28,846 bases of DNA from a virus, in IMG/VR virus record IMGVR_UViG_3300027985_000364, positions 1 to 28,846 of that record; one strand, given 5' to 3'. A model generated the notes under the pieces. That model was not told where the DNA came from. It searched no databases and worked only from the letters and a program-made list of their open reading frames with translations. The position numbers and the translations under genes are program-made. Of this stretch, positions 693 to 9,029 are shown piece after piece. How positions within the stretch are numbered: the first letter of the stretch is position 1; the number at the start of each line of letters is the position of its first letter.

Positions 693-700
693 ATAAGAGT

Positions 701-734
701 CGTTGCTCTACGAGCCCCGTTGCTCTACGAGCCC
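701..734 (+). repeat. Two tandem copies of a 17-nt GC-rich repeat
   Basis: The unit CGTTGCTCTACGAGCCC occurs twice head to tail with no mismatch. Each copy contains the small dyad GCTC-TAC-GAGC. It stands at the presumed 5' end of the structured RNA and is much richer in G and C than its surroundings. I did not see a third copy in the window. Confidence 0.9.
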
Positions 735-1061
735 CAACTAGTTTCTACGTATTCCTTATGCTATCGCAAAGGAAATACTATAAACTTAATTTTATTATTA
801 ATGTATTGACGTAGAAGAGTGAAAGGTTCCTCTTCCCCCTATAGCACCAAAAAGGCACTATAAAGGGAAAGAGTTTGACGTTAGTGTCGTTCGTGGTTTT
901 GTATTGTAGATTCAGTTAAGGCAGAAGCGAGTCATCCGGTTTCTCCTGCTATAATTCACGCAACAGAATTATATACTACAGTCTCATATGGCGGTCGTAA
1001 TCTAGGGCTAATGCTTGCGATTACTCGGTTATAACGTGCTATACAAACAACACATTAAACT

Positions 1062-1093
1062 GTTCGTATCCCTACGAACTTCCTTTTTGTTTT
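1062..1093 (+). terminator. Terminator-like hairpin at the end of the structured RNA
   Basis: GTTCGTA (1062-1068) and TACGAAC (1073-1079) form a perfect 7-bp stem with loop TCCC, followed by TTCCTTTTTGTTTT. The T tract is interrupted but adequate for an intrinsic terminator on the plus strand. Confidence 0.55.
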
Positions 1094-1240
1094 GAATAAT
1101 TTACTACAAGATCATTACAAGTTAGCGTAACTTACTTCTAATTAATAGGTAATGCTTGGTTAGTTTGAATACTTATAACAAACGTTAACGGTATAGAATT
1201 TTTCGAATTCCTTGCAATTAAACTTTAATTTTGTTTAACC

Positions 1241-1475
1241 CCGCAAAATTGCAAATGCGGTATTTCGATTTATGAAATATTATTTCCACGACGCAGTCTA
1301 TATTTATACTGGCGCCTCGCAATGGCGGGGTAGTCTTTATTCTCCCCAATCCCATCGGTACATCTCCAGTTCCATGTATATCTCATGTCATCGTGCCGGT
1401 CCTGTCCCCGGGTGGTACACAGCTCTCACTGTGCCATTTGTGTCACGGTTTTTAATGTACGCAAAAATGCGTGAT
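1241..1475 (+). other. GC-rich island with multiple hairpins
   Basis: By hand count, 72 of 130 bases in 1311-1440 are G or C (about 55%), far above the surrounding sequence. Hairpins seen: CCGCA/TGCGG (1241-1245 with 1256-1260), directly followed by TATTTC/GAAATA (1261-1266 with 1274-1279); CGCC/GGCG (1313-1316 with 1324-1327); GGGG/CCCC (1327-1330 with 1344-1347, sharing base 1327 with the previous hairpin); TACAT/ATGTA around 1359-1378; CACAG/CTGTG (1418-1422 with 1429-1433); and ACGCA-AAAA-TGCGT around 1459-1471. An 88-codon frame (1272-1538) crosses it but has no ribosome binding site, uses C- and G-ending codons unlike the rest of the phage, and its ATG lies at the TATTTC/GAAATA hairpin. 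I therefore favour a structured RNA or DNA element over a protein. Strand is uncertain. Confidence 0.45.
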
Positions 1476-1587
1476 ATAATCAAGAAAGGGCTTATTAAAA
1501 ATGAGCTTAAATGGGCTTTAAAATTAGTTGTTTTGTAAACTTGAGCTTATGTCTTAATATAACATACAATTCTTTAATTTGTGATAA

Positions 1588-1624: not shown

Positions 1625-2110
1625 ATGAACAACAGGCTAAAAAATCCAGCTGATGCTGCAAAATACAGAGAACAGCTACTACAGAAACAACATAAAATTG
1701 ATCCTATAACACAAACTGAAATAAAAGATGCAGTATTAGATCATCAGCACTTTGGTGAGCAGAGATGCAGAGCAGTTTTAGAAAGAACTGTGAATAGTTT
1801 TGAAGGAAAAGTGTTTAATGCTTATCAACAATATGTGAAACACCATACAGATTTAAGTATTTCTGACATATTACGAAATTTAGCTGACTATCTTGAAAAA
1901 GATTACAGTAATAACGCTATTCACCATACTGCTATAGATACTGATGTTCGCGCATTTAAGCAATTAACATCGTCTACGCAAAAAGAAATACTTGAATCTA
2001 TTAATATTAACCCAGAAACAAACGCATTAAAACGCGCAAAACAAATAAGAAAGGCAATCAGAGAAAATAAATTAGATTCTCAAGTAATATATAATAAAAA
2101 AGGCGCATAA
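1625..2110 (+). CDS. 49: Recombination endonuclease VII homologue lacking the zinc cysteines (gp49-like)
   Basis: T4 endonuclease VII cuts Holliday junctions and other branched DNA so that replicated, recombined DNA can be packaged. At 161 residues this protein is close to T4 gp49 (157). The active-site block is present: D39-H40-x-H42 (VLDHQH), then N57 and E60 in VNSFEGK, matching the T4 DH-x-H and N-x-x-E residues. The C-terminal part also matches T4, with YLEKDYSNNAIH at 89-100 and F111-x-x-L114. Missing are the two CxxC pairs that bind structural zinc in T4: the first pair corresponds to Lys/Asp in QHKIDPIT and the second to ERTVN. The only Cys is C48. No good Shine-Dalgarno precedes the ATG, which lies 29 nt after a late promoter box. 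The last codons form one arm of a terminator. Identity is fairly sure; cleavage activity is inferred. Confidence 0.82.
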   Translation: MNNRLKNPADAAKYREQLLQKQHKIDPITQTEIKDAVLDHQHFGEQRCRAVLERTVNSFEGKVFNAYQQYVKHHTDLSISDILRNLADYLEKDYSNNAIHHTAIDTDVRAFKQLTSSTQKEILESININPETNALKRAKQIRKAIRENKLDSQVIYNKKGA

Positions 2111-5530: not shown

Positions 5531-5876
5531 TGTTAAAATAAAGAGATAACATATCTGATGTTTCTTCTGTGTAAAAATACAGCGAAATATCTATTTGATA
5601 TCCATTATCCAATTCAGTAATTGTAATAGAATTTTCTTTTACTCTAGGATCTGATTGGATAATACGTCTAGCATCATCTTTAAGCTTAGTTCTTATATCA
5701 TCGCTCATTAATTCAAATGTTAAATTGTGCCCAATGAACCCGTAATTTACATCAAGAAGCCTTTCGCCTTTCATTGTCATAAATTGATTCATTAAATCTT
5801 TTTTAACTAATTCAATATCTGTTAATATTTGAGTTGGACCTGTAGAATTTGAGCCAAAACCAACAAATTCAGCCAT
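5520..5876 (-). CDS. 25: Baseplate wedge protein, gp25-like (118 aa)
   Basis: Proteins of the gp25 (GPW_gp25) family sit at the inner baseplate wedge, where they contact gp6 and gp53 and help nucleate the sheath. The family core is visible at residues 24-60: VKKDLMNQFMTMKGERLLD followed by NYGFIGHNLTFEL, corresponding to the usual GER-x-x-x-P-x-F/Y-G block. Then come the Arg-rich helix DDARRIIQSDPRVKENS and the short beta tail typical of the family. Length fits the family (T4 gp25 is 132 aa). The ATG overlaps the upstream lysozyme stop by one base (TAATG), so translation is probably coupled. A terminator whose loop holds the stop codon ends the gene. Confidence 0.88.
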   Translation of the reverse strand: MAEFVGFGSNSTGPTQILTDIELVKKDLMNQFMTMKGERLLDVNYGFIGHNLTFELMSDDIRTKLKDDARRIIQSDPRVKENSITITELDNGYQIDISLYFYTEETSDMLSLYFNNAS

Positions 5877-6364
5877 TATTTACTCATCCCTGATAATAAG
5901 ATAATATATCGTTTAATTCTATTTGGTGCTTGTTTGTATAACCTAGAATTTTTTAATTCAGCTGCGGCTGTTTTGTAATTATTAGATTTTAGTGCAGTTA
6001 AGAAATTTTTAAATTTAGATAACCCGCCTTTTCCTATTTGATATACTAAACATGCTAGAAGTATTTGAATTTCTAAAGGGCATGACAATTCGTACTTAGA
6101 ATACAGTTCTTCAGCACCAGAAACAGCAGTTTCTAAATCTCTTACTAATAAAGCAGATGCTTCATCAGGAGTAAGCCCTTGTTTAAATGACTCGTTAATT
6201 AATACCAAATGACCATAACCGATAGTAGGTTTCCCTAGAGTATCGTTATATTGCACAAATTTACCGTTCTTATATGTACCAATTTTTGCTTGATATTCTT
6301 TTGACCCTTCGTCTAGCATTATTTTGTTAACTAGATCCTTGTTTGACGTTGTTAAAGACCACAT
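5876..6364 (-). CDS. T4-type lysozyme, stand-alone (GH24 muramidase, 162 aa)
   Basis: It hydrolyses the MurNAc-GlcNAc bond of peptidoglycan. The T4 lysozyme catalytic triad Glu-Asp-Thr maps to E19 (MLDEG), D41 (YNDTLG) and T47 (PTIGYGH). Near the C-terminus, PNRIKRYIILL matches PNRAKRVITTF of T4 lysozyme. No signal peptide is seen, so release would need a holin or the virion. It is encoded inside the baseplate operon, directly downstream of the gp5-like gene, whose C-terminal domain is a related GH24 lysozyme (both share a D-x-x-G-x-P-T-I-G-x-G-H core and a PNR motif). It could be a virion or baseplate enzyme or the cell-lysis enzyme. It has a strong AGGAGG ribosome binding site and its own late promoter box. 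Confidence 0.88.
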   Translation of the reverse strand: MWSLTTSNKDLVNKIMLDEGSKEYQAKIGTYKNGKFVQYNDTLGKPTIGYGHLVLINESFKQGLTPDEASALLVRDLETAVSGAEELYSKYELSCPLEIQILLACLVYQIGKGGLSKFKNFLTALKSNNYKTAAAELKNSRLYKQAPNRIKRYIILLSGMSK

Positions 6365-6404: not shown

Positions 6405-9029
6405 TTAGCTACCTAACCCTTTCAATTTAGCAATATGTCTGTTTACTCGATTTGGTGTTTGTCTGTACCATGCAGAAGCTTTCAGAGCATCACCCGCAGC
6501 TGAATATTTTCCTTGTGACATAAGACTTAAAAATGTTTTGAATTTTCTTAATCCACCAGGGCCTAATTGATAACATGCTTGAACAAGTACTTGTTGAGCT
6601 TGATACGGTATTTTCATATTATACTGACATGCAATTGCTTTAGCATTTCTAACATGCTTAATTAAATCTTTTTGTAATAACGCAGCACATTCGTCATCAG
6701 TTAAACCTGCACCAAAGTTCTCACCTGCAGTTACTAAATGACCTATGCCTATAGTAGGATAACCTCTAGTATCACGGTATACCCAGAATCTATTATTTCT
6801 ATAGTAACCCAGTCTAGTTTGAATACCTTTTCCGCCCTCATCTGCGGTTATTTCTCTATTTAATTGAGCATCATCGGCTTCAACTATCCAATCTATTGGT
6901 GTTGGATCTGATTTTAACGGTTCCTGATCATCTGGAAGACTTACAGTACCAGAGGTTACACCAGTTTTTGAAGTAGTATTTGATGATATAATTGCTCCAC
7001 TTGATGGATCATTTAATGAACCACTTAAAGGTAATGTAGTAATGATGGTATCAATACCTGTAATTTTAACTAGCCCTGAACTAGTATATCCTGTACTATT
7101 TGATATAGCACAAACTGGATTTGATGTTTGACTCTGTGTTAGTTGTTTGTTTGACGAATCAGAACCGGTACTAGTAATTTCAATATAAAATAAACCTGGA
7201 TCAACTGTTCCCTCGAACCCTGCTAAACTACTTGTATTTTTTCTTATTTCAAATAGCATGGTATTTTTTGCCTTACCAAATACTGTACCAGCAGTAATTT
7301 CTTTTCCTTCTTTAAATTGAGAATCTGTACTTAGTTTTATACCATCATACACTGATTCGTAGCCATCTTGATGATCTACTATAAAAAGAGTACCACTTGA
7401 ATATTTAATTACACCGTTGGCAACTGAAATAACATCAACATCAGTCGGTCCTAAATCAATTGTCCACCCTGTATTATTATCAGTAGTTCCATCGAGCTGT
7501 GTTATATTTTCTCCCCAGTATCCATATTTTTGGATAGTACCAGTAACTGGCATCATATAGCACAAAGCACTTAATGATTTATCCGAAACTTTTCCTATAT
7601 CATTAATTACTGTTGCTCCTACAGCTGATTCAGTTTGAACTTCAATAACATCATTATAGGCTGATGGGCCTAATGAACTTACGCTAACAGAACCAGCAGA
7701 TTGTGGTGATTGAATACTAGGAGACGATCCTGAACCGGTAATTGGAACACTAACAATAGGATCTCCATGGTTGTGCCTATGACTATTTAAGCTAACAGAT
7801 GGTGTAGTAACATCATCGCCTGCATGAATAGCACCACTAAAGTTCATTGATGAACTTACACTCATTGTTCCGCCACCACCCGACATTGCGATACCAGACC
7901 CCGAGATTAATGATATAGACCCACCTTTTACTAATATTGAACCAGATATATTTGTAGAAAGTGAAGATGTTTGTAAATTAAATGAAGAAGAAGACTGCCA
8001 ATTTATTGTACCAGAATTTAAAATATCTAAAGATGACAAATCCTGCTTAAACGCACCTTTTACTCTCAAATTATAATTACCTAGAACATCAACATTATAA
8101 TCACGTTCAGCTAAAATATTTACATCACGTTTTGCTCTTATTGAAACATCTCTATCTCCTAATAGTGTAATATTACCATCAGGATCTAATTCAATTCTAG
8201 CTGTGCCGTCTCGGTTAATAATAAAGATATTCCCTTTTGATTCGGATATCATTATTGTTCCACCACTTCTAGTTCTTAATAATATACCTTCGTATTTTCT
8301 ATCACCTAGAACTGTATCTTTTGATGGTGAACCTTGTTCAGTATTTTGATATTCGTCTGGATTATCGTCCCATGTTTGAGATTTTTCTTCGCCTTCAATA
8401 TAACCATCATCAAGAACAATATGATTACCGCGAGGTGAGCTTAAACCATACACCATATAAGGAACTTGTCTACTGCTAGATCTATCAGCAGTGGACATAT
8501 CATAATCGTATAGCATACGTTGTCTACGTAAACCATCAATTAAATTAACATTTGGATACTCCGCATCGATTGCACTATGCATTGAATTTCTATCGTATTC
8601 TGTTACTGGTAAAGGAGCATCAATTGTAGCAATACTAGGAGTTTTAGTTTTTGGACCAGGAACATTATTAGTCATTCCGTAATCATAAGCGCACCCAAAC
8701 CAATAAGCTTTATCTAATCTTCCGTTAACAAAGAATACAAATACTCTTACATTTATATCAGGAGGAACACCCCAAAAACCATATGACATAGGATAATCTT
8801 CAAACTTAGTAGCAAATGGCTCGCCTTGGGTTCTCCCACCAAATGGTGTTGCATAATCACATGTTATCCACCCAGATTTATTATCTTCTGGTGATGATGA
8901 ACCAACAATCCAAACTTTTAAACGACCCATTTTTTTAGGGTCTCTGTTGTCTTTTACTATAGCTTCTTGTATAAATGACGGATTACTTTGTGATAGCTCA
9001 GTTTTTTGAAATTCTTCAAAACTGCTCAT
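6405..9029 (-). CDS. 5: Baseplate hub spike, gp5-like, with degenerate M23 and C-terminal lysozyme domains (874 aa)
   Basis: This is the cell-puncturing spike at the tail tip. Order of parts: an OB-fold-like domain (about 18-115; IVKDNRDPKKMGRLKVWI at 24-41 is the usual gp5/VgrG start); a linker; a beta-helix-like region (about 245-410) with alternating short strands (GDRDVSIRAKRDVNILAERD); a His-rich tip motif SHRHNH (416-421); a domain resembling peptidase M23/LytM (about 490-616); and a GH24 lysozyme (about 712-874) with catalytic E731, D753 and T759 and PNR near the end. The M23-like part keeps D525 and the DHQDGYESVY and LFEIR strands, but the zinc His positions are occupied by G521, T590 and L592, so it should be inactive. 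In T4 gp5 the lysozyme lies between the OB fold and the helix; here it follows the tip. An AAGGTAGG stretch, about 8 nt upstream, precedes the ATG. Confidence 0.82.
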   Translation of the reverse strand: MSSFEEFQKTELSQSNPSFIQEAIVKDNRDPKKMGRLKVWIVGSSSPEDNKSGWITCDYATPFGGRTQGEPFATKFEDYPMSYGFWGVPPDINVRVFVFFVNGRLDKAYWFGCAYDYGMTNNVPGPKTKTPSIATIDAPLPVTEYDRNSMHSAIDAEYPNVNLIDGLRRQRMLYDYDMSTADRSSSRQVPYMVYGLSSPRGNHIVLDDGYIEGEEKSQTWDDNPDEYQNTEQGSPSKDTVLGDRKYEGILLRTRSGGTIMISESKGNIFIINRDGTARIELDPDGNITLLGDRDVSIRAKRDVNILAERDYNVDVLGNYNLRVKGAFKQDLSSLDILNSGTINWQSSSSFNLQTSSLSTNISGSILVKGGSISLISGSGIAMSGGGGTMSVSSSMNFSGAIHAGDDVTTPSVSLNSHRHNHGDPIVSVPITGSGSSPSIQSPQSAGSVSVSSLGPSAYNDVIEVQTESAVGATVINDIGKVSDKSLSALCYMMPVTGTIQKYGYWGENITQLDGTTDNNTGWTIDLGPTDVDVISVANGVIKYSSGTLFIVDHQDGYESVYDGIKLSTDSQFKEGKEITAGTVFGKAKNTMLFEIRKNTSSLAGFEGTVDPGLFYIEITSTGSDSSNKQLTQSQTSNPVCAISNSTGYTSSGLVKITGIDTIITTLPLSGSLNDPSSGAIISSNTTSKTGVTSGTVSLPDDQEPLKSDPTPIDWIVEADDAQLNREITADEGGKGIQTRLGYYRNNRFWVYRDTRGYPTIGIGHLVTAGENFGAGLTDDECAALLQKDLIKHVRNAKAIACQYNMKIPYQAQQVLVQACYQLGPGGLRKFKTFLSLMSQGKYSAAGDALKASAWYRQTPNRVNRHIAKLKGLGS

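Follow-up and report, generated by a model that had tools for sequence, protein, structure and literature searches.

Evidence for a multi-copy structured RNA family of Rak2-group jumbo phages, with a diverged copy in a gene-free stretch of a viral DNA fragment

What occupies a long stretch of phage DNA that encodes no credible protein? The question is raised by a gene desert near one end of the window, the whole stretch of 28,846 nucleotides analyzed here (IMG/VR record IMGVR_UViG_3300027985_000364). This 28.8 kb virus fragment encodes baseplate, tail-lysozyme, late sigma factor, SbcCD-like and giant virion proteins. The phages closest to it are the Rak2-group jumbo phages GAP32, 121Q, BF, CBB, RaK2 and XaC1, and its 1113-residue baseplate protein shares approximately 42-46% identity with the counterparts in this group; by sequence comparison, we take the window to be a piece of a Rak2-like jumbo phage genome. 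The desert spans positions 557-1624. Two small minus-strand ORFs bound it on one side and a plus-strand endonuclease VII gene on the other; this gene also adjoins the corresponding slot in contig L032 and in XaC1, GAP32 and CBB:

1625-2110, plus strand: endonuclease VII gene (phrog_423, E 2.9e-32), a divergently oriented neighbour by which the syntenic slot can be recognised.

A first-pass annotation had seen no credible protein gene in this stretch, and our analysis agrees, as none of the ORFs of the desert has a convincing PHROGs family (best E 0.07). Elsewhere in the window, a strong hairpin flanked by runs of A and T follows the endonuclease VII gene (2095-2125) and is likely a bidirectional terminator, and two tail-lysozyme paralogues lie side by side (5876-6364 and 6405-9029), like those of GAP32.

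Direct searches with the stretch of the window (BLASTn and nhmmer) found no relatives, the window copy having diverged too far. Relatives were reached through contig L032, which carries the nearest endonuclease VII and has a 700-base desert in the same place, sharing short motifs with the window. With the L032 desert as the query, intergenic matches were found in Rak2-group phages, several per genome. A second search, using a 121Q copy as the query, identified 164 places in 41 records, with 4-5 per record in most members; individual copies were taken from whole-record searches. At the matched places, the records listed show no feature, short hypothetical proteins, or are unannotated altogether. 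Synteny on the baseplate side was also followed in the relatives, and no desert was found there.

To describe the family, a covariance model of the 3' domain (R1) was built from 24 copies, with the window left out; its alignment has two-sided changes in 14 of the 25 predicted pairs. R1 matches the window only once, at 1002-805 on the minus strand (40.3 bits, E 4.8e-8, a value that rests on a rough calibration), and this match sits beside endonuclease VII, the same place that copies occupy in GAP32, CBB and XaC1. An alignment of 18 copies, including those of the window and of RaK2, contains four helices, one of them a pseudoknot, which are 94.9% paired; 17 of their 20 pairs show compensatory changes on both sides. 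None of 500 shuffles reaches these values; the shuffles do not keep relatedness, so that the argument lies in the size of the effect and in the two-sided changes. Structures slid along the same alignment are only 37-53% paired, a comparison that favours the four helices, since we defined them ourselves from one aligned sequence. By helix, and in window coordinates, pairing reaches 98.9% for 988-992/931-935, 97.8% for 976-980/905-909 and 100% for 943-947/923-927.

These results bear directly on the alternative that AT-rich intergenic DNA folds by chance here and yields no functional RNA. The excess stability of the plus strand is indeed modest (z -2.7), as this alternative would have it; however, the compensated pairs, the shuffles and the far lower pairing of the slid structures refute it, and the independent R1 match in the window stands against it as well, leaving it a negligible probability. 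A real conserved structured RNA almost certainly sits at this locus, on the minus strand. The central proposal of the first-pass annotation, a conserved structured RNA lacking an Rfam entry, is in this respect strongly supported by the covariance models, the covariation and a search of Rfam 15.

The 5' domain of the other copies holds a second pseudoknot, in which an upstream strand pairs with the loop of a small hairpin: at least 7 contiguous pairs form within the own copy in 77% of 53 copies, compared with 19% of swapped controls. Two further observations concern the sequence of these RNAs. A hairpin-tip motif, TACAATATAGATCCGTC (variants ACAAGAAAGATCCGTC and GGCTGGCTATAGATCCGTC), is found inserted at two separate places in the RNA, which gives it a modular look. 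In the three RaK2 copies (L251-L253), both CGTCA motifs of the 3' end read CTTCA, a concerted change.

More distant occurrences were also sought. Searches with R1 and a further model, R3, gave no convincing remote copy in Atu_ph07, SCTP-2, PA5oct, XacN1, RAS14 or Phosso, and a weak R3 match in Vibrio phage 2.275.O (289992-290103; 22 bits, E 0.006), lying within a giant coding gene, was taken as chance. A pattern scan of the genome collection returned mostly chance matches in high-GC genomes; the six best-looking of these were scored with R1, and only RIT714 matched. This assembly of Enterobacteriaceae bacterium RIT714 (L198, WJYB01000004.1) carries a strong copy (135 bits) and probably has a jumbo phage contig inside it.

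The strand and the limits of the RNA differ from those first proposed. Transcription of the stretch from the plus strand was not confirmed; both fold stability and the covariance-model match favour the minus strand. Across 698-1093, the folding excess has a z of -5.2 on the minus strand versus -2.7 on the plus strand, and in sliding windows the excess stability is concentrated at 651-950, again on the minus strand. The rod reported at 830-873 exists, but its supposed symmetric internal loops are C-A and A-C mismatches of the plus strand that turn into G-U pairs on the minus strand; this is why the rod (829-874) is more stable there, at -27.7 kcal/mol versus -15.8 on the plus strand. In the RNAalifold structure of the family, G-U cells number 160 and A-C cells 56, a count that supports the sense strand but is biased towards it, given that the structure was predicted on that strand. 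The perfect 8-bp closing helix between 743-750 (TTCTACGT) and 809-816 can be seen in the sequence as described. Two proposed signals were correctly located but misread: TATAAT is present at 687-692, although as a lone hexamer in AT-rich DNA, outside the promoter-like sites that we found, and the 7-bp hairpin is present at 1062-1079, not as a plus-strand terminator but probably as an internal hairpin of the minus strand. Of the whole RNA, the interval 698-1093 takes in just the 3' half, and in reverse orientation.

On the minus strand, the RNA of the window probably starts near 1549 and runs to 805 or past it, which makes it longer than first proposed. The following parts were assigned to it:

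740-1549, minus strand: inferred extent of the RNA, from the promoter position, the homologous 3' domain and the terminal helix 743-750/809-816; the 3' end is uncertain.
1556-1585, minus strand: putative promoter ATCACA-18-TATATT with an extended -10 (TGTTATATT), in a position like that of the boxes of other copies.
1062-1079, minus strand: 7-bp hairpin, probably internal; its equivalence to the hairpin after the family AAGGGAG was judged by eye.
1028-1060, minus strand: hairpin with loop TTGTTTGTATAG at 1039-1050, a loop sequence that the family has in its hairpin upstream of GACCG.
805-1002, minus strand: best-conserved part of the RNA, its 3' domain (covariance model R1), sole R1 match, 40.3 bits, E 4.8e-8 (rough calibration).
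931-992, minus strand: pseudoknot helix 988-992/931-935, 4 of 5 pairs formed, 3 of them by two-sided compensation relative to 121Q.
905-980, minus strand: helix 976-980/905-909, 5 of 5 pairs, 3 by two-sided compensation relative to 121Q.
950-973, minus strand: inserted hairpin specific to the window (TATAATTC/GAATTATA), at a junction in alignment A4 that carries no insertion in other copies.
923-947, minus strand: helix 943-947/923-927 around the conserved GAAAC loop, 5 of 5 pairs, 2 compensated.
829-874, minus strand: long 3' hairpin, counterpart of the family CCCC/GGGG hairpin, aligned by R1; -27.7 kcal/mol.

The core helices of the family are thus present in the window copy (H2 with five of five pairs, H3 with five of five and the pseudoknot with four of five), while a fourth helix, H4, is not conserved in it. 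The middle domain of the family (GATAGA...AAGGGAG...GACCG), as represented by model R2, has no match at the window locus, where only the loop TTGTTTGTATAG is recognisable; TTGNTTGTATAG occurs once in the window, with 0.05 occurrences expected. A comparison by eye of the 5' domain of the window with P1-P3 revealed no convincing likeness. Because R2 does not match at the locus and only that loop can be recognised, the window RNA, as far as these models describe it, has a 5' half that is either very diverged or different. Just past the 3' end of the RNA, at 701-734, the window has two perfect tandem copies of a 17-base sequence (CGTTGCTCTACGAGCCC).

Most copies of the family are preceded by an extended -10 box (TGnTATAAT) and an upstream TGAAAC-like element. 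This motif matches the TGAAACG/TATA class, which has been reported as a second promoter type in CBB, is shared by GAP32 and lies mostly close to genes for DNA synthesis (PMC5259590). The genome of BF contains 26 full motifs, on one strand only, and the motif is therefore not specific to the RNA. As for the window, shuffled sequences contain at least as many promoter-like sites as the desert does, and the case for the putative promoter is its position and not the match itself. It should also be mentioned that six copies (L088, L081, L091, L264, L077 and L080, which are those of slot S1 in GAP32, BF, 121Q and Munch together with two XaC1 copies) have a terminator-like hairpin and a T run directly after the predicted start, before the structured core; the GAP32 record annotates a terminator at 35113-35142.

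Eleven near-complete genomes (XaC1, BF, GAP32, Hallingskeid, CBB, Kaldavass, Munch and four IMG/VR genomes) have exactly five strong copies each, all on one strand; 121Q has four and RaK2 three. The gaps between copies are mostly 50-90 kb, and the window record, at only 28.8 kb, is roughly one third as long as the usual gap. In each of the genomes tested, the spacing of the copies is more even than random placement would give (P 0.0001 to 0.025), it being understood that these genomes are related and that spacing and strand are not independent observations. The slots are syntenic as far as they could be assigned, which was done by where they lie with respect to the baseplate gene. A tree of the copies gives every slot a clade of its own in the large group that includes BF, GAP32 and CBB, and the copies of XaC1, 121Q and RaK2 tend to group by genome. 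Repeated homogenisation of paralogues at fixed positions would fit this picture, which comes from one quick tree with long branches. That five positions are kept while the sequences are homogenised suggests that selection acts on dosage, or on how the copies are spread around the genome.

An even distribution around the genome is what might be expected of a replication-origin RNA, that is, of regularly spaced transcripts that make R-loops or primers and so start DNA replication; the link of the promoter class to DNA-synthesis genes (PMC5259590) and a conserved hairpin block just 3' of the core would suit such a role too. However, the GC skew of BF does not change sign at the copies but tracks gene orientation, so that replication origins there are not supported, and covariation with G-U pairs points to selection for a single-stranded RNA fold rather than for DNA. 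We regard this role as distinctly unlikely.

A cis-acting leader or antitermination element, through which each copy would govern how its downstream genes are transcribed or translated, has somewhat more to recommend it, although it too is unlikely. A same-strand gene lies within a few hundred bases after four of the five GAP32 copies, and in several copies the start site is immediately followed by a terminator-like hairpin; yet nearly all genes are on the same strand (PMC5259590), so such neighbours are expected, and the genes downstream differ from slot to slot. Moreover, in GAP32, CBB and Munch the copy at the endonuclease VII slot points into a convergent gene, and a simple leader role therefore does not fit this slot.

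Since a leader misfits the endonuclease VII slot and the skew does not support origins, a trans-acting role is the leading reading. We consider it somewhat likely that the family is a trans-acting ornate RNA of Rak2-group jumbo phages, made with the replication-phase genes; the case for action in trans comes chiefly from one slot at which a leader is excluded, and the mechanism given here is conjectural. Host RNA polymerase would start each copy at its middle-type promoter in the replication phase, and each transcript would adopt a compact, ornate fold. The copies would not each control the adjoining gene but would jointly provide, in trans, the dose of one RNA species, which might be a structural scaffold, an RNA-only assembly or a sequestering RNA. 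More tentatively, regularly spaced, homogenised copies at five conserved positions could possibly reflect a genome-scale role of a new class of ornate RNA. Such an RNA may, for example, organise, count or scaffold the jumbo genome or its transcription units, or form RNA-only assemblies; we know of no noncoding RNA with a genome-scale role of that kind. A special case of action in trans is a host-directed decoy, an RNA that binds and diverts a defence nuclease, a ribosome component, RNA polymerase or another host factor. Titration would fit multi-copy early or middle expression, and in pull-down experiments GOLLD is reported to be bound by bacterial ribosomes (PMC12286853); we nevertheless rate the decoy as very improbable.

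To our knowledge, phages encode few large structured RNAs, none with an established function. The occurrence of this family in the cultured, laboratory-friendly phages 121Q, GAP32, BF, CBB and RaK2 opens the function of ornate RNAs to E. coli phage genetics, and it means that the unannotated gaps of jumbo phage genomes are not empty. The first-pass annotation had suggested membership in GOLLD, ROOL or a similar class, or in a new one. At the gathering threshold, no Rfam 15 family (GOLLD, ROOL, OLE, HEARO and phage RNAs among them) matches the window or its relatives, and permissive thresholds, applied to the window and eight copies, gave sub-threshold chance matches only. In the open-access literature, the scope of our survey, with subscription papers and preprints outside it, no description of this RNA family was found. 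Because of these two results, membership in ROOL or GOLLD is not supported.

OLE, which is known from bacteria and has protein partners, resembles the new family in being a large conserved structured RNA but differs in the lack of an Rfam match, and we know of no OLE RNA in the Rak2 phage group. For HEARO and IscB-type guide RNAs, a multi-copy structured RNA acting as a guide is conceivable; however, no Rfam match was obtained, and the GAP32 copies inspected have no annotated IscB- or TnpB-like neighbour gene. GOLLD is likewise a large ornate phage RNA, with a conserved 3' region and a variable 5' region (PMC12286853), and the window copy too keeps only its 3' domain detectably, a likeness that is not evidence of membership. 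Unlike GOLLD, the new family has no Rfam match and has 4-5 copies per genome, and the window copy is not beside tRNA genes, although the proximity of GOLLD to tRNA genes is a tendency and not a strict rule. No tRNA genes were found in the 28.8 kb window, nor in 12 related loci scanned, save two that were reached only via distant endonuclease VII genes. ROOL is phage-encoded, 500-700 nt long, with several pseudoknots, no known protein partner and an unknown function (PMC12286853). The new family is similar to it in size, in its pseudoknots and in being a structured RNA encoded by phages, but it has no Rfam match, its conserved sequences differ as far as the models tell, and it is multi-copy and regularly spaced; four to five evenly spaced paralogous copies, as found in most of these genomes, are not described for ROOL or GOLLD in PMC12286853.
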